Origin: Anaerocolumna sp. MB42-C2
Lineage (GTDB): Bacteria; Bacillota; Clostridia; Lachnospirales; Lachnospiraceae
Length of the DNA: 64,000 bases
Reading direction: 5' to 3'
NCBI RefSeq assembly: GCF_030913705.1
Contig: NZ_CP133190.1
Coordinates: forward strand, 5,481,501 to 5,545,500
The translations under genes and the position numbers were made by a program. Positions 6,372 through 24,995 of the stretch are shown piece after piece (the stretch's first letter is position 1; each line of letters opens with the position of its first letter). Below the pieces are notes generated by a model, which was given only the letters and a program-made list of their open reading frames with translations, had not been told where the DNA came from and searched no databases.

Positions 6372-7310
6372 TTAATCAGAATCGCTAATAACTGTTATGA
6401 TTGATATATTTGCCTGTACTGGTATATTAGCATATAGTATGCTTGCACCGGATTGATTTACCAGTGTAATGGTAACGGGTTCATCGGCAACGGTAAAAAA
6501 TCCGTCGCCATCCACCTGTCCGGTAACATTCGGTGAATTACCCAAAGCAATCGTGTTGCCGTTCGCAAGTAAAGCGAATACCATATTAGATGGGCCAGCC
6601 GAACCATCTGTTGTAACCCACCAGCTTATATAATAATTGCCGGGTTCTGAAATGGTAAATTCTCCGGTCTGAAGATTGTAAGAAATACTTTCAGACTGAT
6701 CGGTTATAGTAGTATCAAATATTACATTAGCTTCATTAGCAAGTATGACACCTGGGCTTTGCTGCAACTGTGCCTGGATTCCTGTCAATTCACCAGGCTC
6801 TTTTTGGCCATAGGTCACAACCAGCTGTGGTTCAAAATCAGCGCCGCTTAGTTTCCCGCCAAAAAGTACGGATGTTATTCCATCAGGATTAGTTAATGCT
6901 AAACCATAATTCGGGGCTGCTCCGGTAAGCCATTGATTTACCAGAGAAGTAACAGAAATTTCAATATATTTCAACTGTTCGTCAGATGATATTTCTGTCG
7001 TAATCCCAGTCGGTTCATAGGAAGGCTGGGTATTATACGTTACAGTATTTATATCGTAATTAGAGGTTACTCGATTTACCACAATTGGGCTGGGTGTTGC
7101 ACCGTCTTTTGTGAAAACGAATAAGCGAAGTGTGGCACTGGTTACAGGTGCAGAGGGTAAAGAGGATAAATCAAATTTAATAAAGCTTATACTGTTCTGA
7201 TAAACTGAATGAGTGCCGACTGCAATAACAGCACTTGCAGACAGATTATATTCTGCTAAAGCACTTGATACAAAAGTGGTACCAGTAGAAAGAAAGGTTT
7301 GGGTCGTCAA
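6372..7310 (-). CDS. DNRLRE-domain protein with BclA/C1q-like C-terminal domain
   Basis: A 312-residue protein. Residues 1-170 form a DNRLRE-type beta-sandwich found in surface proteins (SFIKFDLSSLPSAPVTSATL, then VTSLVNQWLTG, YGLALTNP and a closing PQLVVTYG). Residues about 180-312 look like the TNF/C1q-like trimer domain of Bacillus BclA exosporium proteins (FTISEPGNYYISWW, FALLANGNTIALG, and a closing NISIITV). There is no signal peptide, membrane segment or sorting motif, which would suit a spore-surface protein made in the mother cell. Start choice: TTG 7310 lies 9 bp after AAAGGAG, while the TTG at 7319 touches that site. It is the last gene of the leftward glycan locus and a candidate glycosylation target. 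Confidence 0.75.
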   Translation of the reverse strand: MTTQTFLSTGTTFVSSALAEYNLSASAVIAVGTHSVYQNSISFIKFDLSSLPSAPVTSATLRLFVFTKDGATPSPIVVNRVTSNYDINTVTYNTQPSYEPTGITTEISSDEQLKYIEISVTSLVNQWLTGAAPNYGLALTNPDGITSVLFGGKLSGADFEPQLVVTYGQKEPGELTGIQAQLQQSPGVILANEANVIFDTTITDQSESISYNLQTGEFTISEPGNYYISWWVTTDGSAGPSNMVFALLANGNTIALGNSPNVTGQVDGDGFFTVADEPVTITLVNQSGASILYANIPVQANISIITVISDSD

Positions 7311-7372
7311 AGTAGTCAACTCCTTTCTGGGACAATTTAGGGTAATCTACTTAATGTAAATAGTATATTACC

Positions 7373-7378
7373 ATTATA
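7373..7378 (-). promoter_or_regulatory. Possible -10 box for the DNRLRE gene
   Basis: TATAAT on the minus strand, about 60 bp before the TTG start of the DNRLRE gene. The matching -35 (TTTTTA, 17 bp upstream) is poor, so the assignment is weak. Confidence 0.35.
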
Positions 7379-7466
7379 ATATATTCGACAGTAGGTAAAA
7401 ATGTTCAGGTATGCTTATTTTATGGGTAAAAAGAATAGAGATGAAAAGAAAAAGGATTTTTTTGAT

Positions 7467-7494
7467 GCTTTCAGGTGGTTTCACACCTGAAAGC
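7467..7494. other. 11-bp perfect hairpin after the GT4-like gene
   Basis: GCTTTCAGGTG (7467-7477) and its complement (7484-7494) flank a 6-nt loop, 20 bp past the stop codon of the leftward GT4-like gene. No T-run follows directly on the minus strand (a T-rich stretch begins about 10 nt later), so it may be a weak terminator or an RNA-stability element. Confidence 0.5.
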
Positions 7495-7513
7495 TAAGAA
7501 ATGAGATTTAATT

Positions 7514-8614
7514 TTACAGGAATTGCTGTAATATAGCAGCTCTTTGCCCCATCTGTTTATTAAAGTCAAATACCTCTTTGAATTTAGCCTGGCCATTTGC
7601 TGATAACTGATATAATTTCTGTGGATCATAGTAATATTCCAGAATATTTGCTGTAATAGCATTCGGGTCAAGGTTAATAATGAACAAGTCTTTTCTATGC
7701 TCAAAATGGGCATTCTGGTTTAACGGATCAGTACAAAATACACCAACACCATTTAAACCGGCATCGATACAACAGCCAGTAGGAAAACCGTCAAAGTTTT
7801 TGCCCGGTATCAGGACAAAAGCAGCATTTGGTGACACGATAATATCCATTCCTGAGTAAAAACTCGGGAAGAAATTATGATCTTGTAAGCCGTAGAACGT
7901 AATTCTGTTTTCTAAACCGGTAATATCCAGATCCGTACGGTCGTAATTCCCCACTACATGGAACATAATATTCGGGGCTACCGCCGCCAGCTGTTTACAG
8001 GCGTTTATGAAAAGGGGATAGCCTTTATCAACGCCCTGAGCCATATATTTATGAGACACGAAACAGATATCAAAGGTTGCTTTTTCCGTACCATAATGTC
8101 TTTTTGGCGGTGTAGACAAAAAATACTGGGGATGGGTAACCAGACCATAAATATAAGCAATTTTATCCGGTGTTACAAACCCTCTGTTTAAAATAAAATC
8201 ATAAGTTGCTTTCTGGGTTATTATTACTTTTTTTAATAATGGTGATTGCAGGACTTTTATTAATTTTGCGTCAACTTCCGGGTCATTGAACCAGAAGGCT
8301 CCGCCAGGATACAATTCAAAAATAAATGGTTTTTGAAACATATCAAACATAAAGTAAAATGCATATGCATTATTTAAAAATACAGTATAAAATAATGAGG
8401 TAGATGCACCCGTCCAGTCGTATTGGGTTACAGGTTTAACCCTGTTCGCAAACTGCGGATAAGCAGCTACATACTTAGCATAATGCATATCATAATTAGT
8501 GGAGATTATTTCACTGGCAGGAAACCTCTCCAGATAATAATTAAACTCAGATACACGAAAACCTGTAGTCAAATTTGGGAAATAGTCGTCAAGTATTGTT
8601 AAATTACCGCTCAT
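7514..8614 (-). CDS. GT4-like glycosyltransferase
   Basis: A 366-residue cytoplasmic glycosyltransferase of GT-B type. The C-terminal donor-binding half contains the segments FHVVGNYDRTDLDI, a MDIIVSPNAAFVL strand, and DGFPTGCCIDAGLNGVGVF, which corresponds to the E-G-F/x-E-A donor site of GT4 enzymes, although the usual second glutamate reads D here. The N-terminal half has no familiar motif. It lies between a GT2 gene and the DNRLRE gene in the same direction, 82 bp below the GT2 stop. GGAGG lies 10 bp before the ATG. Donor and acceptor are unknown; a sugar chain on the neighbouring surface protein is a reasonable guess. Confidence 0.75.
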   Translation of the reverse strand: MSGNLTILDDYFPNLTTGFRVSEFNYYLERFPASEIISTNYDMHYAKYVAAYPQFANRVKPVTQYDWTGASTSLFYTVFLNNAYAFYFMFDMFQKPFIFELYPGGAFWFNDPEVDAKLIKVLQSPLLKKVIITQKATYDFILNRGFVTPDKIAYIYGLVTHPQYFLSTPPKRHYGTEKATFDICFVSHKYMAQGVDKGYPLFINACKQLAAVAPNIMFHVVGNYDRTDLDITGLENRITFYGLQDHNFFPSFYSGMDIIVSPNAAFVLIPGKNFDGFPTGCCIDAGLNGVGVFCTDPLNQNAHFEHRKDLFIINLDPNAITANILEYYYDPQKLYQLSANGQAKFKEVFDFNKQMGQRAAILQQFL

Positions 8615-8696
8615 TAAGTCTTATACCTCCATTCTTATTTATTCGATAAGTAAGGGCTGAGCCCTTGTTGCTTCTTTTTATAGGTTTTTTATTTTG

Positions 8697-9596
8697 TTAA
8701 TTCGCATTTTCTGCATAGTAATTGAAATTTTCTAAAGCCCAGTCTATATGATACAAATGAGTGGAATAAGACATGGGATCAAGGAGGGATGCGCAATAAA
8801 CGCTCCTTTTGCCCTGGTTTAGTTCATCAAAATATTCAAAATATTTCCAACGGTTAATTGTAGAAAAATCCAGATTTTTGTGTTTGTTATTACGGAGATC
8901 AAAACAGGTGTTAACGTCTCTATTCAGTTTACATAAATGAATTCCCTCGCAATTCTCACAAGGTATGGTCTGGGTCAGATCAATAGGAATATTGGTTGTA
9001 AGTCCTGCTTTAAAGGACGTATATTTATTAATTCTAATTGAAATTTCAGCATCACCATAGCAATTTTCTTCACACCAGTATCCTATGGTATCGATCAGTT
9101 CAGGTCTTAGACATTGACAATGTCCGGGTACGAAATCACGTATACTTCCTACTTCGTAATGTTTTAACTGATTATAACTTACACCATCTTTCTCTATGGT
9201 AACAACCTCCGGTTCATAACCTGGGAGAGGTATAGGTCTTGGAACTCCAAGGAGCCCTACTTCTGGAAAAGTTTCAAAAACCTTCATAAACCGGCTGATC
9301 CAGTCAGAAGCGTATAAGTAAACATCACTTTCCAATACGATAAAATACTGGTCAGGCCTTCTCCTGGTCAGATTCAGATTAATAGGGTAAATAGGCCCGA
9401 GATTTATAGGAAATCGAGTTCTCGATTTAATACGGCTGTCATTTAAACTTTGAATATACTCCCAGGTATCATCTTGTGAGTTGCTATCAATAATATGAAG
9501 CTCAAAATCGTCCGTAGTTTTTAATAATGAATTTAAGTTTCTGAAGGTTAAGCCCATTCTATGAAAAGTGGAATAACTGATTAAAGGTGGTGTCAT
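8697..9596 (-). CDS. GT2 glycosyltransferase with four-cysteine motif (copy 1)
   Basis: A 299-residue GT-A enzyme. The start PPLISYSTFHRMGL is followed by IIDSNSQDDTWEYIQSL, and ESD in FIVLESDVYLY takes the place of the metal-binding D-x-D. W-C-E-E-N-C-Y-G-D-A-E is the likely catalytic-side segment. After the GT domain comes C213-x2-C-x5-C-x8-C231, shared exactly by the two paralogues at 9833 and 12750, then a tail ending ALENFNYY. ATG 9596 was chosen because GGAGG lies 7 bp upstream; the frame extends to 9614 through that site. With this start, length and cysteine numbering equal those of copy 3. The gene probably has its own promoter below the terminator at 9720-9772. Confidence 0.85.
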   Translation of the reverse strand: MTPPLISYSTFHRMGLTFRNLNSLLKTTDDFELHIIDSNSQDDTWEYIQSLNDSRIKSRTRFPINLGPIYPINLNLTRRRPDQYFIVLESDVYLYASDWISRFMKVFETFPEVGLLGVPRPIPLPGYEPEVVTIEKDGVSYNQLKHYEVGSIRDFVPGHCQCLRPELIDTIGYWCEENCYGDAEISIRINKYTSFKAGLTTNIPIDLTQTIPCENCEGIHLCKLNRDVNTCFDLRNNKHKNLDFSTINRWKYFEYFDELNQGKRSVYCASLLDPMSYSTHLYHIDWALENFNYYAENAN

Positions 9597-9719
9597 AATA
9601 AACCTCCATTTCATTCCGGTAAGCTAAAAGTTAGTGTTCAGTATTGGTGTCTGGTATAATTATATAGTATGTGGCTCTAAGAGCCGTTGTTACAAAAAAA
9701 TACAAAAAACCACATAATA

Positions 9720-9772
9720 AAAACAACTTTCTCTTGGAATAAATACTACACGATTCAAGAGAAAGTTGTTTT
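9720..9772 (-). terminator. Strong terminator within the glycan locus
   Basis: Two perfectly complementary 17-nt arms (9720-9736 and 9756-9772) are followed on the minus strand by a T-run. It would end transcripts from the upper half of the leftward locus just past copy 2 of the GT2 genes. Confidence 0.85.
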
Positions 9773-9832
9773 GCCTTTATCAAATATAAGCAACCCCTTT
9801 TAACATAATTTAACGTTTCACAGTTTTTGCCG

Positions 9833-10882
9833 TTACTTCGGATTGGAATTCCTGATATAATAATCAAAATTTTCGGAAGCCCATATTTGATTATAATAAT
9901 GATTTTTCATTGATTCAGGATCATGAACAGAAGCACAATAGGCAGTCCTCTTTCCCGCTTCCAGCTCTTTAAAGGTTTCCTTGTATTTCCATCCGTGTTT
10001 TCTTACAAAGGATTCATTGTAATTGGCAGTTTTGCTGAGGGAAAAGCAGGTACGTACACTTTTGCTGAGTTTACAGAAATCTCTGGCCAGGCACTGGTTA
10101 CAGCCGATATATTGGTTCATATCAATCTCGACATTAGTCAGATATCCAACTTTATATTTAGTGTAATGAACAATTCTGGGAGATAACTCCGCATCACCGT
10201 AACCGTTTTCTTCACTCCAATATCCTATTTCTTCAATTAATTCCGGCCTTAGGCATTGTAATTGTCCGGGTACGAAATCAAGGTCTACTCCTACCGTAGC
10301 ATTTCTTAATTCCAGATAATTAACAGCTCCATTTTCTCTGGCAATAACAGGAGGCAGATATCTTGGATATGGTTTATCTCTCATAACACCAAGCATACCA
10401 ACTTCCGGAAAAGCATCAAAAACCTCCATAAATTTGGCTATCCAGTTTTTAGTTTTAATAAAGGTGTCACTGTCTACAGTAATAAAAAACTGCCCAGGTT
10501 TTCTCTTGGTAAGACTGTAATTTAAGGGGTATATGGGACCAAGATTTAAGGTAAACCGCGTCTTGGACTTTATTCGTTTGTCATTTAAACTCTGGATATA
10601 ATCCCAGGTATTATCTTTTGAATTACAATCAATGATGTGTAATTCGAAATCTTCTTCAGAATCAAGGATATTATTCAGATTTTTAATTGTAAGTCCCATT
10701 CTGTTAAACGTTACATAGTTTATAAAGGGAGGTATTTTAACGATTTCCGTTTTTTTCACTTTCTCGCTTTCCTCCGCCTCATAACATTCTACATAATCAT
10801 TGCTTTTGCTGAATAACTTTCCTTTTATATCTTTTACCGTATCGGTAAAGCGGTTGATATTATTGCCAAATGCTTGCTTCAA
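9833..10882 (-). CDS. GT2 glycosyltransferase with four-cysteine motif (copy 2, N-terminal extension)
   Basis: A 349-residue paralogue of the 299-residue GT2 enzymes, with about 48 extra N-terminal residues (NRFTDTVKDIKGKLF and a charged linker). The GT-A core shows IPPFINYVTFNRMGLTIKNL, the nucleotide-binding IIDCNSKDNTWDYI and the metal-binding DSD in FITVDSDTFI. The cysteine motif C261-x2-C-x5-C-x8-C279 is conserved. It starts with TTG at 10882, 9 bp after AAAGGA; no better ATG exists upstream of the conserved core. The stop codon is followed by a strong terminator. The extension may give this enzyme a different partner or place; no membrane segment is visible. Confidence 0.82.
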   Translation of the reverse strand: MKQAFGNNINRFTDTVKDIKGKLFSKSNDYVECYEAEESEKVKKTEIVKIPPFINYVTFNRMGLTIKNLNNILDSEEDFELHIIDCNSKDNTWDYIQSLNDKRIKSKTRFTLNLGPIYPLNYSLTKRKPGQFFITVDSDTFIKTKNWIAKFMEVFDAFPEVGMLGVMRDKPYPRYLPPVIARENGAVNYLELRNATVGVDLDFVPGQLQCLRPELIEEIGYWSEENGYGDAELSPRIVHYTKYKVGYLTNVEIDMNQYIGCNQCLARDFCKLSKSVRTCFSLSKTANYNESFVRKHGWKYKETFKELEAGKRTAYCASVHDPESMKNHYYNQIWASENFDYYIRNSNPK

Positions 10883-10931
10883 TGTCAGCAGTCCTTTCTA
10901 TCATTAATTAGCTGGTTATGGTTTCGGTTCT

Positions 10932-11567
10932 TTAAATGGTTCTCCCAGGTACTCCAACGGCAGTACAGTTTTCGGGCAGATCTCTTATGATAACTGCACC
11001 AGCGCCGATAATACTCCATTTCCCAACAGTCTTTTTTTGTATTACGATTGCTTTTGAGCCTATTTCACAACCTTCGTGAATACATACATTTCCGGATAAG
11101 GTAACATTCCAGTACAGAGAGGTGTAATCTTCTATGATAGTATCATGACCGATACCACAGCCTGGATTAATGCAAACGTGATTCCCTATCTTTGTATTTA
11201 CGGATATAAAAGAGTTGCAGCAAATGATGCAGCCAGATCCCAATTCACTATATTTATTAACTTTTGCATCAGGGTGTATTAATGTGGCATAATTAACAGG
11301 ATAAGCAGAAGCTTTTTGTATTATATTATATTTATCCCGCGGATTTCCAAGGGCACATACGGTCCATATTTTGTTTTTCCGGCTTTTTAGTAACCAGTCA
11401 AAACTTCCAAGTACCGGCGTGTCATTTATTACGGAACCCTGTTTTTCAACGGTCTCATCTATAAATCCTAATAAGTTCCATGTTTTTTTATCTTTATTTA
11501 TCTCTTTTATCAACTGGGCGACTTCTTTGCCTAAGCCGCCGGCACCAATGATAACAATGTCTTTCAT
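10932..11567 (-). CDS. NeuD/PglD-type sugar O/N-acetyltransferase
   Basis: A 211-residue enzyme. Residues 1-90 form a Rossmann-like part opening with IVIIGAGGLGKEVAQLI; the remainder is a left-handed beta-helix of hexapeptide repeats (KIGNHVCINPGCGIGHDTII and on to a closing GAGAVIIRDLPE). The histidine of GIGHDT is the likely catalytic base. NeuD and PglD proteins transfer acetyl groups from acetyl-CoA to sialic acid or to 4-amino sugars. The aminotransferase gene ends 4 bp upstream, so the pair very likely makes an acetamido sugar as in the PglE-PglD steps of bacillosamine synthesis. The sugar itself cannot be named. Confidence 0.85.
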   Translation of the reverse strand: MKDIVIIGAGGLGKEVAQLIKEINKDKKTWNLLGFIDETVEKQGSVINDTPVLGSFDWLLKSRKNKIWTVCALGNPRDKYNIIQKASAYPVNYATLIHPDAKVNKYSELGSGCIICCNSFISVNTKIGNHVCINPGCGIGHDTIIEDYTSLYWNVTLSGNVCIHEGCEIGSKAIVIQKKTVGKWSIIGAGAVIIRDLPENCTAVGVPGRTI

Positions 11568-11571
11568 AAAA

Positions 11572-12702
11572 TCAACCTTTTTGAATAGCTTTTATGATCG
11601 CACAGATTTTTTCTACGTCATTTTTTTGCATTCTGCCATGTAATGGAAGGGAAAGTACCATATCTGAGATTTTATTTGCTATTGGAAGATTTTCTTTCTG
11701 AGAGGAAGGAAAATCTTTATAACATTGAAAATTGCTGCAAAGAGGATAAAAATATTTTCTGGCAATTACGTTGTATTCTAATAATTTATCATAAAGTTCA
11801 TCGCGGGAAAGACCATATCCTGCTTTATCAACCCGGATAACGAAATAAGAATAGTTATGATCAACACCATCGATATCTTTACTGGTTATGATTCCTGGTA
11901 CCTCTTTTAACAGCTGACGGTATAGATTTGTTATTTCTTTTCTGCTTTCGATTTCGCTTTCTACCTGCTTTAACAGTAAAATACCCACAGCAGCCTGGAT
12001 TTCATTTAATTTTCCGTTGGTTCCGGGTTCCATTACATTTTCACCGTTCCGGATACCAAAGTTTCTTAAGGAATCTGCTCGTTCTTTCTGATACGGATCT
12101 TTAAAGGTTAAAGCTCCGCCCTCAATGGTATGGTATATCTTTGTTGCATGAAAACTAAACATGGATATGTCGCCAAAGTCCGCTATGGACTTACCATTCA
12201 CTTTAACTCCGAATGCATGAGCCGCATCGTACAATACTTTAAGACCATATTTATCTGCAATTTGCTGTATTTTTTCTACATTACAGGGGTAACCAAAAAC
12301 ATGAACAGGCATGATTGCAGTAGTGTTTTGTGTTATTAATGATTCTATTCGATCAGTATTCATATTAAAGGAATCTTCCTCAATATCACAAAAAACAGGT
12401 TTTATATTGTTCCAAGCCAGGGAATGGGCGGTAGCTGCGAAAGTGAAGGGAGTGGTGATTACTTCACCGGATAATCTTAAAACTTTACATGCTAATTGTA
12501 ATGCAACTGTCCCATTGGAAAAAACGGATAGGAAATCAGTGTTTAAGTAAGCTGATAAATCTTTTTCCAACTGTTTTACCATATTTCCGTTATTGCTTAA
12601 CTGTTTGCTTGCCCATATTACTTTAAGCATTTCATTCATTTCATCCATATCAGGCAGTAAGGGCTGAGTGATATAGAGAGGCTTTGCAAAAGGTTCTAAC
12701 AT
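11572..12702 (-). CDS. DegT/DnrJ/EryC1 sugar aminotransferase
   Basis: A 376-residue PLP enzyme of fold type I. It shows FSNGTVALQLACK near residue 61, VITTPFTFAATAHSLAWN, the PLP-ring aspartate in VLYDAAHAFGVKV and the Schiff-base lysine in MFSFHATKIYHTIEGG, followed by RNFGIRNGE and GTNGKLNEIQAA. Members transfer an amino group from glutamate to a nucleotide-linked keto sugar. With the PglD-like acetyltransferase next door it should provide an acetamido deoxy sugar for the glycan made by the local glycosyltransferases. No dehydratase gene that would make the keto sugar lies in the locus, so that step must be encoded elsewhere. Confidence 0.9.
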   Translation of the reverse strand: MLEPFAKPLYITQPLLPDMDEMNEMLKVIWASKQLSNNGNMVKQLEKDLSAYLNTDFLSVFSNGTVALQLACKVLRLSGEVITTPFTFAATAHSLAWNNIKPVFCDIEEDSFNMNTDRIESLITQNTTAIMPVHVFGYPCNVEKIQQIADKYGLKVLYDAAHAFGVKVNGKSIADFGDISMFSFHATKIYHTIEGGALTFKDPYQKERADSLRNFGIRNGENVMEPGTNGKLNEIQAAVGILLLKQVESEIESRKEITNLYRQLLKEVPGIITSKDIDGVDHNYSYFVIRVDKAGYGLSRDELYDKLLEYNVIARKYFYPLCSNFQCYKDFPSSQKENLPIANKISDMVLSLPLHGRMQKNDVEKICAIIKAIQKG

Positions 12703-12749
12703 CTTGTATTACACCTCCACGAGCCTGCAATTAAATTTATATAAATTAT

Positions 12750-13649
12750 TTAATTTGCATTATTAATATAGTAATTAAAATTTTCCATTGCCCATTCGCT
12801 GTTATATATATGATCTATTGAGGAAGCAATATCATTTGCCGAAGCACAGTATACCGGACGGGCGCCGCTATTAAGATCTGTTATGGTTTCTTCAAATTTC
12901 CACTTATAATTTCTTTTGAATTCTTCGTTTTTATACAGCTTATTGTAATTAGAAAAACAGGTTTCCGTAATTTTATTAAAGGTGCACTGAGAATTGTAGG
13001 GGCATGTGCTGCATTCCATTGTTTGAGGCATTTTAATACTTATATTTGTCATAAATCCGGATTTGAAAGAAGTATAATTATTGACACGATTGGATAATTC
13101 AATATCACCATAATAATTTTCTTCACACCAATATCCAATTTCATTAATAAGTTCAGGCCTTAAGCACATTAAACTGCCGGGTATATAATTCTGTTCTATG
13201 TTAGGGGTAGTATTATCCAGCTCTAAAAAAAAGACACTGTCTTTTACTTTAGGGGTAACCGGAGGAAGCTGGTCCGTATAAGGCAGCCCCCGTTGTACTC
13301 CAAGCAATCCCACTTCAGGAAAAGTTTCAAACACTTTAAGAAAACGGGATATCCAATCTTTTGTTTCAATATAAACATCATTATCGACCGTTATAAAATA
13401 CTGATCCGGTCTTCTTTTCAAGAGATTTATATTCAATGCATAAATTTGACCATAATTAAGAGTTATGCGTGCTTTTGACATAATACGGCTGTCTTTTAAA
13501 CTTTGGATATATTGCCATGTACCATCGGTTGAATTATTATCGATAATGTGCATTTCAAAATCATCACTGGATTCTAGAATTGAAGTTAAATTCTGAACAG
13601 TTAAACCTAAGCGGTTAAATGTAACATAACTTAAAAGCGGAGGTAACAT
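12750..13649 (-). CDS. GT2 glycosyltransferase with four-cysteine motif (copy 3)
   Basis: A 299-residue paralogue and first gene of the leftward glycan locus. It has PPLLSYVTFNRLGLTVQNL, IIDNNSTDGTWQYIQSL, the metal-binding DND in FITVDNDVYI, and C213-x2-C-x5-C-x8-C231. Two starts are possible: ATG 13649 after AAAGGT, or ATG 13676 six bases after AGAGG. The inner one is preferred because it makes length and cysteine numbering identical to copy 1. The three copies differ enough in sequence to have different donors or linkages. The gene diverges from the 590-residue repeat protein across about 180 bp. Confidence 0.83.
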   Translation of the reverse strand: MLPPLLSYVTFNRLGLTVQNLTSILESSDDFEMHIIDNNSTDGTWQYIQSLKDSRIMSKARITLNYGQIYALNINLLKRRPDQYFITVDNDVYIETKDWISRFLKVFETFPEVGLLGVQRGLPYTDQLPPVTPKVKDSVFFLELDNTTPNIEQNYIPGSLMCLRPELINEIGYWCEENYYGDIELSNRVNNYTSFKSGFMTNISIKMPQTMECSTCPYNSQCTFNKITETCFSNYNKLYKNEEFKRNYKWKFEETITDLNSGARPVYCASANDIASSIDHIYNSEWAMENFNYYINNAN

Positions 13650-13826
13650 AATAACCTGACCTTTCGTTATAAGCATATCATACCTCTATTTTATGTTAAT
13701 ACGTTTAAATTGCTACTGATTATGAATCTACTTTTTAAAACTGCCGCATATATTATAAATGTATAACTATACCTGCTGATATGAAATCTGAAATTATTTA
13801 TAAAAAATTATGATACGAGGTGATGG

Positions 13827-15599
13827 TTGGTGAAAATAAATAGTATTCGAATAGATAAATCAGCATATGAACCGAAAGCCTTTCAGAACAAGCTAAAAAC
13901 AGAACTGAAATTAAATGAGAAATCGGATACCGGCACAGAAAATAATAGTGGTTGTGTTATTGAAGAAGTAGACTGCGCAAGTTCTATTACCTGCCTTGCA
14001 ACTATGGAATACAAATATATAGTACAGAGTAAGCCAGTTAGGAAAAGATTAAAAGCCGATGACACGAAACATACAAGCACAGAGAAGAACTTAAAAAACG
14101 GCCCAGGGGCCGGGCAGACCAAAATGGGAGCAAACGGAGGTAATACAAATCAAAAGAAAGAGAATAAAGGAGCTCCGGATAAAAATACTACGAGTAATAG
14201 TAATACAAATAAAGGCGGTATGAGTATTGGCAATGCTAAAACAAGTCAAGTTAATACCAGTAGTAACAATACCCATAAAAGCATTAATAAGAGTAACACC
14301 AATAAGAGTAATATAAATAAGGGTAATGCCAATAAGAGTAACGCCAATAAGAGTAATACAAATAAGGGTAATACCAATAAGAGTAAAACAAATAAGAGTA
14401 ATGCCAATAAAAGTAATACCAATAAGAATAATATAAATAAGGATAATGCCAATAAGAGTAATATTAATAAGGGTAATACAAGCAAGAGTTATACAAGTCA
14501 AGGTAATACAAGTAAAAGTAATATTAATCAAGAAATCTCCGGTAAAGAAATTCTAAATAAAAATCCATTCAATGATGCCGGGAAAAACAATATTACCAAT
14601 GAAATCGGCAGCCAGGAATATGAAGATAAAGCTGTTGAAAATATTAATGCAAAAGAGACCTTGCCAGAAGAAAAGTGTGTTATCGAAGAAGTAGATTGTA
14701 AACTTTCTCTTATCGGTATCGGATATGAAGAGAAAGAGGATGAAATAGAGGATGAAATAAATGCAGAGGTAGTCGCAGCAGTAGGTAATGAAGAACCTGA
14801 AAAAGATGTTTATATGGATTTAACACCTGATATAAAAGATAGTGAAACCGATCAAAGCAGTAATACATCCATAGATAATATTCAGGAGACACCGGAGGAC
14901 CAAAAAATAATCAGTTCGGTTAATCCCGTAGATGAACAGGAAAAGCCTGATATCATCCAATATACCAGCAACAGTATTATTGATAAAATATTGGAATACC
15001 CGGAAGATAAAGAAGATACAAAAGCAGTACAGGAAGTGAAAGCAGTACAGGAAGAAAAAGCAGTGCAGGAAGAGAAAATAATACAGGATGAGAAAGCTGC
15101 TTTGGATACAAGTGTAAAGGAAGATGAAATAAGCGGGAATAAGAGTAATGATCTTATAGAAGAACTGCCAATGAAAGAAAATAAAGAGAAAAGCCACGAG
15201 TTAAGTAAAGACATGATAAAAGAAAATAGAATATTATTACGTATGAAACCATTACATAAAGAGAATATATTAGGGTATATAAGTCTCCTTGCTTTATTTG
15301 GATTATTTGGTATTTTTACCGAAAATAAAGTTTTCCTCGGTTTCTGGGCATTCGCTTATTACTTCAGGTTCTTTTATGTAAAATCGGGTGAAACTTTTAA
15401 AATTATTATTGCGAAAGCAGCAAATTTAGGCTTTATATCAGGAACGGCAGTTTCAATCCTTTCCATGGTGTTTTATGCAATACTTCATAATATACAGATA
15501 TATAATATTGGAATGACAATCGGAGTGATTGCCTCCATTCTGGTTTTTACTATTATGCAGGCATTTTATGAAAAAAAATTAAAGTCACATAAAAACTAG
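13827..15599 (+). CDS. Asn-Lys-Ser repeat protein with DUF3796-like membrane C terminus
   Basis: A 590-residue protein of unknown function with four parts. An N-terminal charged region contains CVIEEVDC at residues 43-50. Residues about 150-232 are a low-complexity array with a six-residue period (NKSNTN, NKGNAN and variants) rich in N-K-S. A second, exact CVIEEVDC stands at 284-291, followed by an acidic, Glu/Asp/Val-rich stretch. The last 110 residues hold three to four hydrophobic segments (ISLLALFGLFGIF, FLGFWAFAYYFRFF, FISGTAVSILSMVFYAIL, IGVIASILVFTIMQ) that resemble DUF3796 membrane proteins. There is no N-terminal signal, so the repeat part may stay inside unless it crosses with the tail. 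TTG 13827 or GTG 13830 follows GAGGTG. Confidence 0.75.
   Translation: MVKINSIRIDKSAYEPKAFQNKLKTELKLNEKSDTGTENNSGCVIEEVDCASSITCLATMEYKYIVQSKPVRKRLKADDTKHTSTEKNLKNGPGAGQTKMGANGGNTNQKKENKGAPDKNTTSNSNTNKGGMSIGNAKTSQVNTSSNNTHKSINKSNTNKSNINKGNANKSNANKSNTNKGNTNKSKTNKSNANKSNTNKNNINKDNANKSNINKGNTSKSYTSQGNTSKSNINQEISGKEILNKNPFNDAGKNNITNEIGSQEYEDKAVENINAKETLPEEKCVIEEVDCKLSLIGIGYEEKEDEIEDEINAEVVAAVGNEEPEKDVYMDLTPDIKDSETDQSSNTSIDNIQETPEDQKIISSVNPVDEQEKPDIIQYTSNSIIDKILEYPEDKEDTKAVQEVKAVQEEKAVQEEKIIQDEKAALDTSVKEDEISGNKSNDLIEELPMKENKEKSHELSKDMIKENRILLRMKPLHKENILGYISLLALFGLFGIFTENKVFLGFWAFAYYFRFFYVKSGETFKIIIAKAANLGFISGTAVSILSMVFYAILHNIQIYNIGMTIGVIASILVFTIMQAFYEKKLKSHKN
14281..14523 (+). repeat. 18-bp-period coding repeat (Asn-Lys-Ser/Gly array)
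   Basis: About 13 degenerate copies of an 18-bp unit, itself two 9-bp halves of the form AATAAGAGT-AATACC. Each unit encodes six residues such as N-K-S-N-T-N. The copies differ by single-base changes, as expected of slippage followed by drift. Confidence 0.9.
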
Positions 15600-18581: not shown

Positions 18582-21500
18582 ATGAAAAACAGGAAAGCTA
18601 GAATATTGGCTGGAGTAGTGGCGGCAATCATGCTGGTAACCAATGTGAATTTGGGCAGCTTTCAGTTAAACGAAACGTCTAAAGTGTATGCAGCAGGAGA
18701 TTCTTCCGATGAAGAAGACTATACGGCCTACGCCGACCCCTTTGTCGGAACGGACGTTGATTTTGGACAACTGTTTCCCGGAGCAGTCACTCCCAATGGA
18801 CTTGTAAAACTAAGTCCGGATACTTACCCTCATAATACGGATGATCATGCAGGATATGATTACAGCAAAACCCAGATAGAAGGATTTTCCCACACCAGAA
18901 TAGAAGGAGTCGGTGGACAGGGAGCAGGCGGGGACATTTTATTAACCCCGACCTATGTCCAGTATGACAGTAAACCAACGGCAGCTTCCAGGGCACAAAG
19001 CTACAGTCATAATAATGAGTCTGCCTCACCAGGGATTTATTCGGTAGAACTTACTCCAAAAACCGGGACGGGTACAAATTATAAAGATGATACCGGCATT
19101 GGTAAAATCAAGGTAGAGTTAACTGCCAATACGAGGACAGGTTATCATAAATATACCTTTCCTAAGGACGGGAGAGTCTCTTTAGTGGTAGACCTAAATT
19201 ATACCTATCACGGAACTGATATCAGGAATGCAGTGCTTAATGTGGAGCAGTCAGGCGGTATAACTGCTGTTTCAGGCAGATTCAGCGGAAGAAACGTCTC
19301 CGGACATGGTAAATACACTATGTATTTCTACATGGAGACAAGCCAGCCGGCAGCAGAAGTGAAAACCTGGCTTAATTCTGCTCTGACAGATGTACAAAGC
19401 CAGGAGGGAAACGATATTGGGGCCGTGTTGTCCTTTGATGCTAAGGCATCGACGCCACTTCAAATAAAGGTCGGTGTCTCACCGGTCAGCAGTGTGCAGG
19501 CGAAAAAAGATATGTATAAAGAAATGTCAGACTGGGATTTTGACGCAGTTTATAATAATGCCAAAGCAGCCTGGAATGATGTACTAGGAAAAGTAAAAAT
19601 AGAGAATTCTGCTGTCAGTGATCCGGACGGAAAGCTTAAGAAATTATTTTATACTCATTTGTATCATATGTTCACTACACCGGTGAATGCCACAAGTACT
19701 GACGATACTTTCCGGGCAACCGACTTAAAGGTTTACAAAGCAGATGATTATACCCATTATGATTCCTGGACCTTATGGGATGACTTCCGAAAATATCCCA
19801 TTATCGGTCTGGTCCTTCCGGAAGTGTATAAAGATTATATCCGTTCCATTGCCGATACCATGGAATACGGAATCGGTACATGGGGGTTGGATACCCAGAC
19901 GGTCCCGACAGTCCGGACCGAACATGCTGTCGCACTTTTAGCCGACGGAGTGGCGAAAGGGTTTGATGATATTGACAATTTGGAAAGTGCGTATGAAACG
20001 GCAAAAAATATAGCCGACGGTACGGTTGACAGTACAGCTGAGAGATTGGGATATATTAAGGGCAGAGTCGACAGAACCGTGGAAGCCTCTTATGATGACT
20101 GGGCGATTTCCCTATTGGCAAAAAATCTGGACAACGCAGAGGATTTTAATAAATATCTCGGACGCTCCTTTTTTTACAAGAATCTGTATAAAGAGGATGC
20201 AGTTACGGCCTCCGTTAATGGAACAGACACTAACATGGGGTTATTATGGCCAAAAGACGCGGCTGGTAATTTTATGAGCGCCAATCCGGAAGCCTACGGC
20301 GATAACAGTTTATATCAGGGAACACTATGGCAATATACCTGGTGGAATTCCAATGATGTAAACGGATTATTGGATTTAATCGGCAGTAAGGAAAAAATGG
20401 CCCGGGAATTGCATTATCTGTACGGAATGCAGGATCCGGGCAACGGAAGACGAATGTTACATACCAATTCCAATGAAATTGACCTGCACACACCATATTT
20501 ATTCAATTTTGTCGGGGAACCCTATAATACCCAGTACTGGGTAAGGCAGATCTATACGGGAAAGACATGGAACCGCTACAGCGGGACAGGGGAGTACAAT
20601 CCACCTGTCTATGACTATGTTTATAAATTGGATCCTCAGGGATTTTTAGAGACCATGGATGATGATGCCGGAACAATGGCTTCCATGTATGTAGCTGCCG
20701 CCATGGGATTATTTCCGATGGCACCGGGGGATACAACCTATCAGATTGGAACGCCTTTTTTTGATAAAGTAACGATTGACGTCGGGAACGGGAAACAATT
20801 TGTCATTGAAGCGGATAACGTATCTTCCGATAATTATTACATTCAGTCAGCTACCTTAAACGGAAAAAACTTTGATCGGACCTGGATCGACTATTCGGAA
20901 ATTATACGGGGTGGTACCTTGAAATTCCAGATGGGTTCTTCGTCTTCCGACTGGGCAGTGGAGGGGATAACAGCGTTATCTTCTTCCGACCTTACAGATA
21001 CGAAAGTCTATGATACCAAAGATATGCTCAGTTATTCCGCAACAACGATTTTTGAGTCTGACCGGAATGACGGCTCTGTTGATGATACCATTACCATATC
21101 CTTGCAAAATACGGATACAGTAATGGTGGGAGAAGAGAATGAAGATTTAATCTCCTCAGGAAGAGTGACGGTAAGTAATGTACCGGAAGGGCTTACGGCA
21201 AGTGCTGTAAAACTGGATGACACAAGCATTCGGATAAGTTTTTCGGGAAATGCGGTCAATCATAACAAGGATGACAGTATTGGAAATCTATCTGTCAGCC
21301 TGGATGATTCCTTATTCAGTAAAGTCATTATAAGTAAGCGGAAAGAAAAATCAAATATTAAAATCATGTTTCGGGATGATACCATTACCTTTGACACGGA
21401 CCGTTTGTATGAATCTGCCGACAATGACGGTACCTTAGAAGGAACTGTTATCGTTAGTTTATCGGGAAACGGTACATTTGATGGTGCTGACGGAGAAGAT

Positions 21501-24500
21501 TTTATTGCGGATGGGAAACTATATTTGTCGAATCTTCCGGACGGATTATCCGCCGGTGCGGTAAAAACAGGAGAGAAACAGCTTGAACTTACCATATCCG
21601 GACAAGCAAAAGAAAATGAGGCCGATGTGGATGATTTGGGGATCACCTTTGAAGATTCAGCATTTTCAGGGGCGGCGGCTTCTGAAATAAACGGTTCCAA
21701 TTATGGAGGTATGAAATCTCTTATACTCGATTTTGCTCCGAACTGGGAGGAACGCCTGGCGGAAATGATAGAGGAAGGCAGGCAAATCAACCCATCCGAT
21801 GTTACGGCCAACAGCTTTTCTGCTTTGAAGGAGGCTTTGGAAAACGGTCAGGAGATTCTTGATCAGGGCGGAGCAGCGGAAAGTGAATACCGGGATGCCT
21901 ATGAGACAATCATTTGGGCCCTGGATGGCCTTGTATACAGTCAGAGTGTCTTAAAACAGCTGGAAGCTGAACAATATACCATATGGTCGGGCGGAAATGA
22001 TTTAAAAACAGAAACCAGCCAGGATAGCAGCGGGATTTCCCTGGGCAATCTGGGAGGAACCTATGACGGAGCCTGGATCGGGTTTGAAAAACTAAACTTC
22101 GGAACCGGTAATATAGCTTCCTTTACCGTTCGTTATGTAAATAACAGCAGCCGCTGTGCCGCAGATTCCGCAATGGAAATTCACTTAGGGAGCCCGGATG
22201 GGGAACTGCTGCAGACAGTATCCTTAAGCCCCAGTGGAAGCAGCTGGAATGCGTATACCTCGAAAACGGTAGAACTGGATCACCCTGAAAAACTTACCGG
22301 AACCGTGGATGTTTATTTTGTATTAAAGGGCACCGGCGCGGTTGGGAGCGGCACTGGGCAGGTATTTGCCGCAAATCTGGACTGGATGAAATTTAATGCG
22401 GCCACTACTTATGGAATATATCAGGCGGAAAATTATTCTTCCTGGTCGGCAGGAAATCTGAAAACAGAAACCAGTACGACATATGAGGGTGAAAGTCTGT
22501 CTAATATCGGCGCTACCTACGACGGAGCTTGGATTTCCTATAATCAGGTATTATTCGGTGGGCAAGGACTTGGTAAAATTGCTATCCGTTATGCAGGAAA
22601 TACGGGAAGGTGCGGAGCAGATGCACGTATAGAACTTCATCTGGATTCACCGGGAGGAGAATTGATTGATACGATTCCCATTGCACCGACGAATCCTGAC
22701 TGGTCGCATTATGTTACCGCCGAGAAAGAACTGGCAGGTAAAGTAACCGGCTTGCATGATATATACCTTGTGATGCGTGCTGCGACAACAGGTTCCAAAC
22801 CATATGTAGCGAACCTTGACTGGTTTTCTTTGATAGAGGCGGAAAGCGACAGTGTGGACAAGTCAGAATTACAGTTCTTATATAATTTTTATGCAGACCT
22901 GTTAAATCAGGAAGACAAATATGAAGCTGCCTCCTTTACCGCTTTTAAAGAAGCAATGGTTCAAACAAAGAAAATACTGGATTCCGTTCAGGCTACGAAA
23001 GAAGAAGTGGAACAGATGACGGCTGTCTTACAGGAGAAGAAAGCGGCACTGATTGCTTTAAATTTACCGGGGGAACCGGCAATCACACCGGATCATGTCG
23101 TTTTCGACAAATATACGGGTTCCATAAACTATGGGGACAAAACAGTAATGATTACAGAAGGTGGTACCTTAACAGGCATTAATAACGGGTCGGATACTTT
23201 GTCCTCAGAATCCGATTATACGGTAACCGGCAGTGCGGTCACAATATATTCCCTATATTTAGAGACTTTGAAAACGGGTACCACGGAATTATCTTTTCAA
23301 TTTTCTGACGGAACTGCTAAAACATTAACAATTCTGGTGACAGATACCACACCGAGACAGGAAGAAGCGGATTCGGTTATCAGTCCGGTTACGGCAGTTT
23401 TTAATAAATATAAAAAATCTTCGGATCATAAAGATGTCGTTGTAACCATGACACTAAACGGTAATACTTTAACCAATATAAAAAACGGGACGGATATTTT
23501 AGCGGAAAGGGATGATTACACAGTAAGCGGCAGTGCGGTTACGGTTCATACGACATATTTGGATAGATTGAAAAAAGGTACGGCTTACTTAACCTTTACA
23601 TTCAGTTCAGGGAAAGACAGCAGTCTGTCTGTCAGGATTGTCGATACTAAACCTTCCTCCCCTTCCTCAGGTCATTCCTCGGGAGCTTCGGGTTCCGTTC
23701 CCTCAACGAGGGAATGGGAAATTCCCGTCGTAACTGACAACGGTACTTCTCAGTCAACGGCTGTACGGATTCCGGTATCCAGAACAACATCCAATGACGG
23801 AACGGTAAAGGATATAGTACAGCTTAAAGAAACACAGGCTGCCGGAATCATAAAAAATGCGCTGGAAACCAGGAGTACCATAGCGGTCATCGATTTAACC
23901 GGGACGTCTTCCGATAAAGCCGACAGTTCGCAGATACAGATTCTTAAGGCAGCGGCGACACTGTTCGGACAGAATAATATTGCATTTACTATTTTAACGG
24001 AACAGGCAGGTATGGTACTTCCGGCAAAAACAATGACAGAGATTGCCGGTCAGGATGTATCTCTTACGATTTCTGATGTTAAAGAGGAGTCACAGATAGC
24101 AAAAACGAAGGATTTAGCTTTACAGATGGGAGTGGAAAAGATGCTGCATTCTCCAATCCGAATCGAAACCAATTATGCTCTAAAAACACAGATAACACTT
24201 CCGATACAAAGCAGTGATCTTCCAACCGAAGGCAGTCAGCTTAAAGAATTTACATCTTCACTGGCAGTACTTGTGGAACACAGCGATGGGGAAATCAGAC
24301 TTAAAAAAGGAACCATCCAATATGATAAAACTGGAAAGCCGACGGGAATATCCGTCTGGGTGGATAAATTCAGTACCTTTACCCTGGTAAAAACTACGTT
24401 TGACGGAACTGTAAAAGTATTGAAAAATAAGCAGATGCCGGATAAAGAGCTGAATGTAAGGTTTGGCCAAAATCTGGATTCTGGGACCGTTTCGGAAGAT

Positions 24501-24995
24501 AATGTATATGTATTGGATTCTAAGGGAAATAAGATAGATGTGACCATAGCGTGTGAGAGAAACAGTATAAAAGTGATACCGGTAAACTATTATAACCCCG
24601 GGGAAACTTACACATTTTACATTACGAAAAATGTCCTGTATGAATCCGGTTTACCAATAATAGCACGAAAGTATGAATTTACCATTGGTAATATACTTCT
24701 TGGTGGTACGAAAATAAATACTTACCAAAATGTACCGGCAGATAAAATCTGGTCAATTAAATTAGATAAGAGGATAGACATCAAAACTTATAAAAACAAA
24801 TATGTTACGGTAGTTGACCAGTACTGTAACATTATAAAAGCGGTATCTTCTGTGGTTAAAGACAGCTATATAAAAGTGATACCCCAGGATAAATATAAAT
24901 CCGGAAATACCTATTACATAATTATTGACGGGTTAAACTTTGATGACGGTACTGCAATGGATAAAGCGGTATGGATTAAGTTTTCCATAAAATAA
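18582..24995 (+). CDS. Giant secreted GH92 alpha-mannosidase with CBM6-like, FIVAR and Ig-like domains
   Basis: A 2137-residue exported enzyme. A signal peptide (ILAGVVAAIMLVTNVNL) is followed by the GH92 domain at about 46-800, with YADPFVGTD, FPGAVTPNGLVKLSPDT, EGFSHTRIEG, DSWTLWDDFRKYP, DDWAI and YVAAAMGLFPM, all hallmarks of calcium-dependent exo-alpha-mannosidases. Then come two related beta domains (about 803-1045), a FIVAR-like helix pair, two CBM6-like domains (about 1126-1270 and 1280-1420), another FIVAR, two CBM_X2-like repeats (about 1500-1690), a Ser-rich linker, a unique domain, and two SbsA-like Ig domains at the end. It should trim terminal mannose from N-glycans or yeast mannan outside the cell. 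AGGAGG precedes the ATG. No sorting motif or SLH repeat is present. Confidence 0.93.
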   Translation: MKNRKARILAGVVAAIMLVTNVNLGSFQLNETSKVYAAGDSSDEEDYTAYADPFVGTDVDFGQLFPGAVTPNGLVKLSPDTYPHNTDDHAGYDYSKTQIEGFSHTRIEGVGGQGAGGDILLTPTYVQYDSKPTAASRAQSYSHNNESASPGIYSVELTPKTGTGTNYKDDTGIGKIKVELTANTRTGYHKYTFPKDGRVSLVVDLNYTYHGTDIRNAVLNVEQSGGITAVSGRFSGRNVSGHGKYTMYFYMETSQPAAEVKTWLNSALTDVQSQEGNDIGAVLSFDAKASTPLQIKVGVSPVSSVQAKKDMYKEMSDWDFDAVYNNAKAAWNDVLGKVKIENSAVSDPDGKLKKLFYTHLYHMFTTPVNATSTDDTFRATDLKVYKADDYTHYDSWTLWDDFRKYPIIGLVLPEVYKDYIRSIADTMEYGIGTWGLDTQTVPTVRTEHAVALLADGVAKGFDDIDNLESAYETAKNIADGTVDSTAERLGYIKGRVDRTVEASYDDWAISLLAKNLDNAEDFNKYLGRSFFYKNLYKEDAVTASVNGTDTNMGLLWPKDAAGNFMSANPEAYGDNSLYQGTLWQYTWWNSNDVNGLLDLIGSKEKMARELHYLYGMQDPGNGRRMLHTNSNEIDLHTPYLFNFVGEPYNTQYWVRQIYTGKTWNRYSGTGEYNPPVYDYVYKLDPQGFLETMDDDAGTMASMYVAAAMGLFPMAPGDTTYQIGTPFFDKVTIDVGNGKQFVIEADNVSSDNYYIQSATLNGKNFDRTWIDYSEIIRGGTLKFQMGSSSSDWAVEGITALSSSDLTDTKVYDTKDMLSYSATTIFESDRNDGSVDDTITISLQNTDTVMVGEENEDLISSGRVTVSNVPEGLTASAVKLDDTSIRISFSGNAVNHNKDDSIGNLSVSLDDSLFSKVIISKRKEKSNIKIMFRDDTITFDTDRLYESADNDGTLEGTVIVSLSGNGTFDGADGEDFIADGKLYLSNLPDGLSAGAVKTGEKQLELTISGQAKENEADVDDLGITFEDSAFSGAAASEINGSNYGGMKSLILDFAPNWEERLAEMIEEGRQINPSDVTANSFSALKEALENGQEILDQGGAAESEYRDAYETIIWALDGLVYSQSVLKQLEAEQYTIWSGGNDLKTETSQDSSGISLGNLGGTYDGAWIGFEKLNFGTGNIASFTVRYVNNSSRCAADSAMEIHLGSPDGELLQTVSLSPSGSSWNAYTSKTVELDHPEKLTGTVDVYFVLKGTGAVGSGTGQVFAANLDWMKFNAATTYGIYQAENYSSWSAGNLKTETSTTYEGESLSNIGATYDGAWISYNQVLFGGQGLGKIAIRYAGNTGRCGADARIELHLDSPGGELIDTIPIAPTNPDWSHYVTAEKELAGKVTGLHDIYLVMRAATTGSKPYVANLDWFSLIEAESDSVDKSELQFLYNFYADLLNQEDKYEAASFTAFKEAMVQTKKILDSVQATKEEVEQMTAVLQEKKAALIALNLPGEPAITPDHVVFDKYTGSINYGDKTVMITEGGTLTGINNGSDTLSSESDYTVTGSAVTIYSLYLETLKTGTTELSFQFSDGTAKTLTILVTDTTPRQEEADSVISPVTAVFNKYKKSSDHKDVVVTMTLNGNTLTNIKNGTDILAERDDYTVSGSAVTVHTTYLDRLKKGTAYLTFTFSSGKDSSLSVRIVDTKPSSPSSGHSSGASGSVPSTREWEIPVVTDNGTSQSTAVRIPVSRTTSNDGTVKDIVQLKETQAAGIIKNALETRSTIAVIDLTGTSSDKADSSQIQILKAAATLFGQNNIAFTILTEQAGMVLPAKTMTEIAGQDVSLTISDVKEESQIAKTKDLALQMGVEKMLHSPIRIETNYALKTQITLPIQSSDLPTEGSQLKEFTSSLAVLVEHSDGEIRLKKGTIQYDKTGKPTGISVWVDKFSTFTLVKTTFDGTVKVLKNKQMPDKELNVRFGQNLDSGTVSEDNVYVLDSKGNKIDVTIACERNSIKVIPVNYYNPGETYTFYITKNVLYESGLPIIARKYEFTIGNILLGGTKINTYQNVPADKIWSIKLDKRIDIKTYKNKYVTVVDQYCNIIKAVSSVVKDSYIKVIPQDKYKSGNTYYIIIDGLNFDDGTAMDKAVWIKFSIK

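Follow-up and report, generated by a model that had tools for sequence, protein, structure and literature searches.

A predicted late-sporulation glycosylation cassette in Anaerocolumna sp. MB42-C2 and its relatives among Clostridia-type Bacillota

What does a compact row of sugar genes in Anaerocolumna sp. MB42-C2 make, and on which surface does its product end up? The question is raised by seven genes with open frames, all on the minus strand, at positions 6372-13649 of a stretch of 64,000 nucleotides from contig NZ_CP133190.1 (positions 5,481,501 to 5,545,500; the whole stretch is called the window below), which is part of a single-contig genome of 6.44 Mb. In the order of transcription, from 13649 down to 6372, the genes encode a family 2 glycosyltransferase (GT2) of subtype g, an aminotransferase, an acetyltransferase, GT2s of subtypes d and c, a GT4-like enzyme, and a protein that joins a DNRLRE module to a BclA/C1q-type domain (Table 1). 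A first-pass annotation, made from the letters of the window, had described three GT2 paralogues, a GT4-like enzyme, an aminotransferase-acetyltransferase pair and a DNRLRE protein with a BclA/C1q domain, and all seven genes are indeed present. We consider it likely that they form a late-sporulation cassette, expressed in the mother cell under sigma-K, which glycosylates the spore surface and resembles the BclA system in its logic. In silico support comes from the genes present and from their conservation, from a BclA-like fold of the last protein, from an enrichment of sigma-K-like promoters at the GT2 genes and from a bias towards spore-formers.

The two sugar-making enzymes bear on the question of the donor. 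The aminotransferase matches DegT at 331 bits and has DesI (2po3, E 1e-63) as its best solved match, ahead of the six other aminotransferases among the matches listed. The acetyltransferase carries a PglD_N domain and belongs to the NeuD/PglB/VioB subfamily TIGR03570 (219 bits, cut-off 160.8), which also covers enzymes of sugars linked to uridine diphosphate (UDP); its best solved match is VioB (7txp, 1e-33), and UDP-N-acetylbacillosamine N-acetyltransferase 3bss matches it at 3e-11. The first-pass annotation had recognised the pair correctly, but its assignment to PglE and PglD gives way to DesI and VioB, which rank first. In two relatives (loci L024 and L027) genes for RmlA-long and RmlB, both above their equivalog cut-offs, lie divergent from the cassette; similar RmlA/RmlB pairs can be seen by eye in L028, L036 and L041, and an RmlA-like gene in L045. 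Away from the cassette (L069), the genome studied here has RmlA and RmlB above cut-off, and genes that by eye resemble RmlC and RmlD lie between the two. The resemblance to DesI and VioB, together with the RmlA/RmlB genes beside the cassette in relatives, suggests that the product is probably a 4-acylamino-4,6-dideoxyhexose linked to deoxythymidine diphosphate (dTDP). Judged from these matches it is likely dTDP-4-acetamido-4,6-dideoxyhexose, probably of the viosamine type, and it is in this way that we infer the exact identity of the sugar. Viosamine acylated at N-4 and methylated at O-2 is anthrose (PMC9614988), which is made by antABCD and is the terminal sugar of the BclA glycan GalNAc-Rha-Rha-Rha-Ant, a glycan described as sitting on the collagen repeats (PMC10050317). 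The earlier statement that the enzymes differ from those of Bacillus is therefore only half right, since a sugar chemistry of the viosamine/anthrose type is predicted.

The transferases themselves form a distinctive group. The three GT2s of the window are 52-54% identical to one another, and all of them exceed the Pfam cut-off for Glycos_transf_2. They share a motif, CxxC-x5-C-x8-C, whose four cysteines are kept in 57 of 57 aligned GT2s, a chosen set in which split, cut-off and near-duplicate copies (e.g. GT2d of L022, L026 and L044) and the orphan GT2s of L016 and L017 are omitted; no sugar-nucleotide genes adjoin these two orphans, by eye. A tree of the 57 chosen sequences, obtained by a quick search without bootstrap, contains clades for subtype g (12 rows), d (16 rows), c (9 rows) and an orphan subtype (7 rows), with supports of 100, 100, 99 and 99 in the Shimodaira-Hasegawa-like approximate likelihood-ratio test (SH-aLRT). 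Since each subtype clade spans mixed families, the three paralogues appear to be old and distinct enzymes, not recent duplicates. The model of the subtype g enzyme, with a predicted local distance difference test score (pLDDT) of 94, has a GT-A fold and matches GT-A enzymes including TarS and SpsA; among the best 50 matches listed, the template modelling score (TM) by query is about 0.44-0.53, which suggests that the cysteine-bearing C-terminal part has no evident counterpart in those 50. Searched against the PDB at E 0.01, the GT2 profile finds SpsA of Bacillus subtilis as its only match (2.7e-4), over profile positions 16-131 only, and neither Pfam nor NCBIfam holds a model that names the cysteine-cluster family beyond plain GT2. 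In locus L053, two members of the family stand among mutually similar proteins, which may be of the CgeB type of spore maturation proteins.

The GT2 alignment served to scan 84,980 species genomes via two short peptide patterns, so that absence elsewhere is weak evidence. The scan yielded 34 loci. These lie in 22 genomes, each assigned to Bacillota by its title or taxonomy; included are Anaerocolumna, which has the closest relatives of the cassette, Ruminiclostridium, Sporobacter, Formimonas, Gracilibacter, Syntrophomonas and Peptococcaceae. The order GT2g-aminotransferase-acetyltransferase-GT2d recurs in 11 of the 34 loci (L022-L025, L027-L029, L032, L035, L039 and L044), in L027 with an extra acetyltransferase, and L052 has the same order with a shortened GT2g; several of the remaining loci either come from genomes already represented by another locus or are truncated at a contig end. 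Anaerocolumna sp. AGMB13025 is one culturable carrier of the cassette. In L022, from Anaerocolumna sedimenticola CBA3638, the frames of the aminotransferase and of GT2d are each split in two open reading frames (ORFs; 11116-12245 and 13002-14044), which may reflect either a sequencing error or decay. Relatives of the GT4-like enzyme are encoded in L022, L023, L029, L037 and L049. A small conserved protein is found directly 3' of GT2d in three distant genomes (L024:13722-14189, L027:14633-15106 and L045:10909-11355); in Pfam its L024 copy matches only TIR_2, below cut-off, and a fold like that of nucleoside 2-deoxyribosyltransferases is our guess.

The last gene of the cassette encodes a protein whose DNRLRE module scores 82.4 bits with CBM96 and 124.6 bits with the NCBIfam model DNRLRE. 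Its C-terminal domain reaches 25.7 bits with C1q, above the Pfam cut-off of 23.7, and 25 bits with BclA_C, below the cut-off of 38. The model of the protein (mean pLDDT 76.8) was built with seven sequences. Its N-terminal half resembles carbohydrate-binding modules, namely the chondroitin-sulfate-binding 8wab and also 7vbo, and its C-terminal half resembles the head of F-BclA (9h38, TM by target 0.70-0.77), BclA (1wck, 0.73) and C1q domains. A head of the BclA/C1q type is thus predicted by the model, and the match to the crystal structures 9h38 and 1wck bears out the BclA-type domain of the first-pass annotation, whose length of 312 residues and end coordinate were also right with starts placed by homology at 13649 and 7310. 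An N-terminal signal sequence cannot be seen in the protein, for which no signal-peptide program was run, and its N-terminus consists of the DNRLRE/CBM96 module from the first residues, in the place of an exosporium leader, for which no motif scan was made.

In the same genome the DNRLRE module also heads two GPT-rich collagen-like proteins without visible export signal (L018 and L019), the former with a BclA_C-like end (33.7 bits, cut-off 38 not reached), and a beta-helix protein (L020), whose gene adjoins a LysM-GH18 gene, with a DUF6385 gene three genes further. A further collagen protein (L112) has a BclA_C-like end of 31.1 bits, below cut-off. Elsewhere, a DNRLRE module is followed by BclA_C above the Pfam cut-off in L047 (50.1 bits) and L074 (53.6 bits); judged by such matches, the combination of DNRLRE with a BclA head appears to be a recurrent design, which sometimes adjoins sugar-nucleotide genes. 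Collagen-like, GPT-rich ORFs lie near members of the GT2 family in L036, L041 and L051, with an NTTRR-F1 head in L036 and L051. As a separate observation, the DNRLRE protein gene of L074 is divergent from a gene of the GDP-mannose 4,6-dehydratase family, and by eye L076 and L077 show a similar picture (Pfam was run on L074 only); these loci, from other clostridial genomes, perhaps represent a second sugar pathway linked to the module. Likewise by eye, the proteins L021:6972-7958 and L045:17087-18205 share a C-terminal domain (motif roughly CF..AQL.H.L) that has no Pfam match and is joined to a BclA-like domain in one of them and to DNRLRE in the other. No spore paper on DNRLRE was found by title or abstract start in a search that left most subscription journals outside, the one match for DNRLRE and spore being concerned with phage, and the literature found on exosporium and spore glycosylation deals mostly with C. 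difficile, C. sporogenes and Bacillus.

The predicted timing is based on promoters. In C. difficile, a sigma-K promoter is described as having CATATAAT at -10 and AC at -35, and bclA1-3 as being under sigma-K (PMC3789822); the consensus used here was checked against this source. Comparing genes at least 120 bp from the next ORF, we find CATAnnnTA within 250 bp upstream of 28 of the 38 GT2 first genes versus 59 of the 278 other genes in the same loci (Fisher p 2.7e-10), and the box together with AC 14-18 bp upstream in 19 and 22 of them, respectively (p 1.4e-9). Related sequences in these counts are not independent; a test paired by species gives higher rates for GT2 genes in 13 and lower rates in 4 of 18 species within 160 bp (p 8e-4), and 11 higher and 2 lower for the full motif (p 1.5e-3), with 260 of the 278 other genes included (species with both kinds). 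Genes with less than 200 bp of upstream sequence were dropped, and the genes left out of the comparison are 26 of 64 GT2s (3 boxes, 2 full motifs) and 235 of 513 others (13 and 6). The other genes are mechanical ORFs of at least 100 aa, so that false genes among them would lower their rate, and GT2 starts were shifted by script to the Met before a conserved PP. The site upstream of GT2g is part of a promoter island conserved in four orthologous loci, and a matrix trained on 14 sites from other loci gives held-out GT2 genes (14 listed) tails of 0.000-0.147. As sequence matches, sigma-K-like promoters are more frequent at GT2 genes than at their neighbours. Across the whole window, AC-N16-CATAnnnTA is not enriched (4 found versus 2.97 expected), and the promoter claim is hence one about position upstream of GT2 genes only. 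The genome has a sigma-K match above cut-off and SpoIVA; in the same sigma-K family search the control B. subtilis, whose sigma-K gene is split by an inserted element, fell below cut-off.

Carriers of the cassette can be compared with other genomes by the presence of SpoIVA. Of 391 Clostridia genomes, 5 have the GT2 family at E 1e-30, all five among the 278 SpoIVA-positive and none among the 113 SpoIVA-negative ones, five carriers alone being too few for significance; the first-pass annotation had named frequent homologues in non-sporulating species as a point that would speak against it, and none were found there. SpoIVA is present in 21 of the 22 carrier genomes versus 278 of 391 Clostridia (one locus per carrier genome; G402 and G404 share SpoIVA coordinates with G261 and G159 and are counted in both sets), the one carrier without it being a 3.2-Mb metagenome bin. 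With the model used here, the DNRLRE module was found in 20 of the 391 genomes at E 1e-15, 19 of them SpoIVA-positive. From these counts the cassette appears to be biased to spore-formers.

These findings can be combined in a mechanism. RmlA and RmlB encoded elsewhere in the genome would make dTDP-4-keto-6-deoxyglucose, the DesI-like enzyme would aminate C4, and the VioB-like enzyme would N-acetylate the amine, which would yield dTDP-4-acetamido-4,6-dideoxyhexose (viosamine/anthrose class). In the cytoplasm of the mother cell, the three GT2s of one cysteine-containing family and the GT4-like enzyme would assemble a short glycan. Late expression in the mother cell would supply both donor and transferases, so that signal-less surface proteins could be modified before their assembly on the spore; such acceptors would need no export signal, because they are assembled from the mother cell. 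The glycan would go onto the neighbouring DNRLRE-BclA-head protein and/or onto its DNRLRE paralogues with collagen regions, whose genes lie elsewhere. As candidate acceptors we consider the linked DNRLRE protein, L018/L019, L112, or a coat polysaccharide; acceptor, order of transfer and location on the spore are what we infer in this scheme.

Several observations weigh against this proposal. The aminotransferase scores 310 bits with the DesI equivalog and does not reach its cut-off of 650, and the second-best solved match of the acetyltransferase is the pilin glycosylation protein 4m98 (1.6e-25), a rank at which its substrate may be of the N-acetyl-bacillosamine type. Ten of the 38 GT2 first genes have no -10 box within 250 bp, and by the trained matrix the GT2c site of the window is the weakest (tail 0.147, i.e. 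15% of other genes score as high). The full sigma-K motif occurs at none of 10 DNRLRE genes and the -10 box at two; a sigma-K promoter for the DNRLRE gene was sought with the trained matrix, which gives nothing convincing (25-97% of other genes as high), and the conserved block AC-N16/17-AATATAnTA upstream of this gene is a possible promoter. A DNRLRE protein is encoded downstream in only 6 of the 34 loci (directly after the cassette in L022, L023, L039, L046 and L047, about 6 kb on in L045), and in L029, which has the order of the window through the GT4 gene, there is no DNRLRE match in the next 3 kb. The window protein has no Gly-X-Y collagen repeats, for which reason we do not file it as a BclA. 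Finally, the GT2 family is rare in Clostridia, in which SpoIVA is common. The BclA-like spore logic of the first-pass annotation hence survives in part: the BclA-type head, the DNRLRE modules on collagen paralogues and the sigma-K-like GT2 promoters agree with it, the DNRLRE gene without a clear sigma-K site does not. Its view of the DNRLRE protein as the glycan acceptor has lost ground, because the protein is without the collagen repeats reported to carry BclA glycans (PMC10050317) and its gene without a clear sigma-K site.

Alternatively, the cassette may make a spore-coat or crust polysaccharide like the sps set of B. subtilis, the DNRLRE protein being a glycan binder or a mere neighbour. 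This is unlikely in our view. The absence of collagen repeats and the infrequent DNRLRE linkage fit it, as do SpsA as the sole PDB match of the GT2 profile and the likeness of DNRLRE/CBM96 to the carbohydrate-binding modules 8wab and 7vbo. In the sps set, SpsC is an aminotransferase, a nonulosonic acid synthase is included, and SpsA was solved with dTDP. The set is further described as having a GT2 (SpsA) and an acetyltransferase (SpsD) and as acting in the mother cell for the spore surface, as predicted for the cassette; unlike the cassette, it makes legionaminic acid via UDP-linked sugars with a cytidylyltransferase (PMC7439481). Neither a nonulosonic acid synthase nor a cytidylyltransferase (CMP transferase) was found among the ORFs of the cluster, the C-terminal cysteine module of its GT2s is not shared with SpsA as far as seen, and protein acceptors are available, because GPT-rich collagen ORFs lie near the L036, L041 and L051 members and DNRLRE-collagen proteins are encoded in the same genome. 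With no collagen in the linked protein and a CBM-like fold in its DNRLRE module, this protein may bind rather than carry the glycan. A bolder and doubtful version of this idea is that the module would be a lectin for the glycan of the linked enzymes, that clostridial spores would tether their BclA-type heads through contacts between protein and sugar on a viosamine-type coat glycan of their own making, and that the CxxC-x5-C-x8-C GT2s would be a dedicated new glycosyltransferase family; such tethering would differ from the peptide leader of Bacillus and the CsxA lattice of Clostridium.

Two further explanations lead away from a spore glycan of this kind. General protein glycosylation with UDP-N,N'-diacetylbacillosamine (PglE/PglD type) is very unlikely: although the acetyltransferase, by subfamily and by its PglD_N domain, and the rank of 4m98 are compatible with it, VioB outranks 4m98 and, by far, 3bss, DesI is ahead of the other aminotransferases listed, relatives carry RmlA/RmlB, and no oligosaccharyltransferase or flippase is found among the cassette genes. 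With DesI and VioB scoring better, this pathway was not our first choice. Even less can be said for a cluster for a vegetative cell-surface polysaccharide or an S-layer glycan unrelated to spores, which we regard as most improbable. Genes for GT2, GT4, aminotransferases and acetyltransferases are common in such clusters, but the seven cassette genes include no priming transferase, flippase, polymerase or exported acceptor, sigma-K-like promoters precede GT2 genes, and the 113 SpoIVA-negative genomes are without the GT2 family at E 1e-30.

Returning to the likely reading, a late-sporulation cassette for the spore surface, its closest parallel is the BclA system of the Bacillus cereus group. The two have in common a C1q/TNF-type C-terminal head (here by fold match), the lack of a visible export signal in the protein described here and, both as predictions for the cassette, late mother-cell timing of the glycosylation genes and a 4-acylamino-4,6-dideoxyhexose. 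They differ in the N-terminus, here a DNRLRE/CBM96 module and not an exosporium leader, in the lack of a collagen region in the linked protein, and in the three GT2s from a cysteine-bearing family that we found only in Clostridia-type Bacillota; the ant genes and the BclA glycosyltransferases were compared by description only. In the bclA3-sgtA pair of C. difficile, likewise, a glycosyltransferase is reported to modify a BclA-like spore protein (PMC7157674), the gene of which, bclA3, is described as sigma-K-controlled (PMC3789822), but there is one glycosyltransferase, versus four and two sugar-making enzymes here (SgtA was compared by description only). F-BclA of the F-ENA appendages provides with its C-terminal domain 9h38 the best-scoring BclA-type match; unlike the protein of the window, it is described as having an N-terminal docking motif for F-ENA (PMC11952670). 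A tip fibrillum of F-ENA was rejected, with no DUF4183/F-ENA match in the genome at E 0.001. Glycosylation of spore-surface proteins or of the crust is already known as a kind of system; enzyme set, DNRLRE module and lineage look new.

The features of the locus are collected in Table 1. The starts at 7310, 9596 and 13649 were placed by eye from homology and ribosome-binding sites inside the longest ORFs, which for the DNRLRE gene comprises 315 aa and reaches 7319. The hairpin with T-run at 9770-9722, between GT2 d and GT2 c, suggests at least two transcripts, and a single operon is not required; it is outside the list of the terminator scan, the loop limit of which is 8. That scan and the one for sigma-70 gave numbers near chance (6 versus 5.3 and 40 versus 32.1).

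Table 1. Features of the cassette and its flank in the window
Feature	Coordinates	Strand	Evidence or remark
DNRLRE (CBM96) + BclA/C1q-type protein, 312 aa, TTG start, without collagen repeats	6372..7310	-	family matches, model, fold matches
BclA C-terminal/C1q-type jelly-roll domain	6375..6803	-	Pfam; fold matches 9h38, 1wck
DNRLRE/CBM96 beta-sandwich module	6810..7310	-	Pfam, NCBIfam; top Foldseek match 8wab, TM by target 0.78
AATATATTA block, AC 17 bp upstream	7375..7383	-	conserved in three Anaerocolumna orthologues; possible promoter, no clear sigma-K site
GT4-like glycosyltransferase, 366 aa	7514..8614	-	Glyco_trans_1_4 27.1 bits (cut-off 27)
GT2 subtype c; start 9596 by homology, ORF to 9614	8697..9596	-	Pfam, tree
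Sigma-K-like -10 box CATACTATA, AC 14 and 17 bp upstream	9663..9671	-	before GT2 subtype c; weak by trained matrix
Terminator-like 15-bp perfect hairpin + T-run	9722..9770	-	between the two cluster halves; by reading the sequence
GT2 subtype d, N-terminal extension, 349 aa, TTG start	9833..10882	-	Pfam, tree
VioB/NeuD-type sugar N-acetyltransferase	10932..11567	-	NCBIfam, PDB sequence matches
DesI-like nucleotide-sugar 4-aminotransferase	11572..12702	-	Pfam, NCBIfam, PDB sequence matches
GT2 subtype g, 299 aa from ATG 13649	12750..13649	-	Pfam, tree, model
Sigma-K-like -10 box CATAAAATA, identical in four orthologous loci	13687..13695	-	before GT2 subtype g; window copy without AC at 14-18 bp
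Divergent membrane protein, 590 aa, Asn/Lys/Ser-rich middle	13827..15599	+	beside the cassette in window, L022, L023, L029

Two genes beside the cassette are worth recording. The divergent membrane protein has two CVIEEVDC motifs, a variable middle rich in Asn, Lys, Ser and Thr, and a C-terminal membrane part (DUF3796, just below cut-off); upstream of its gene, CATATATTA occurs in all four loci that have it, with a full sigma-K-like motif in three. Further on, at 18582-24995 (+), a protein of 2137 aa with a signal-like N-terminus is encoded, which may be a glycosidase of the GH92 type with additional domains.

Glycans on the spore surface influence adhesion, hydrophilicity and persistence, and outside Bacillus and C. 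difficile little seems to be known about how clostridia make them. For clostridia outside these groups, the cassette offers a testable pathway that covers sugar, enzymes, timing and candidate acceptors; it connects a DNRLRE module on candidate spore proteins with a named sugar chemistry, and it includes a GT2 family marked by an invariant cysteine cluster. It also points to the possible existence of BclA-type heads with 4-acylamino-sugar glycans far outside the Bacillus cereus group.

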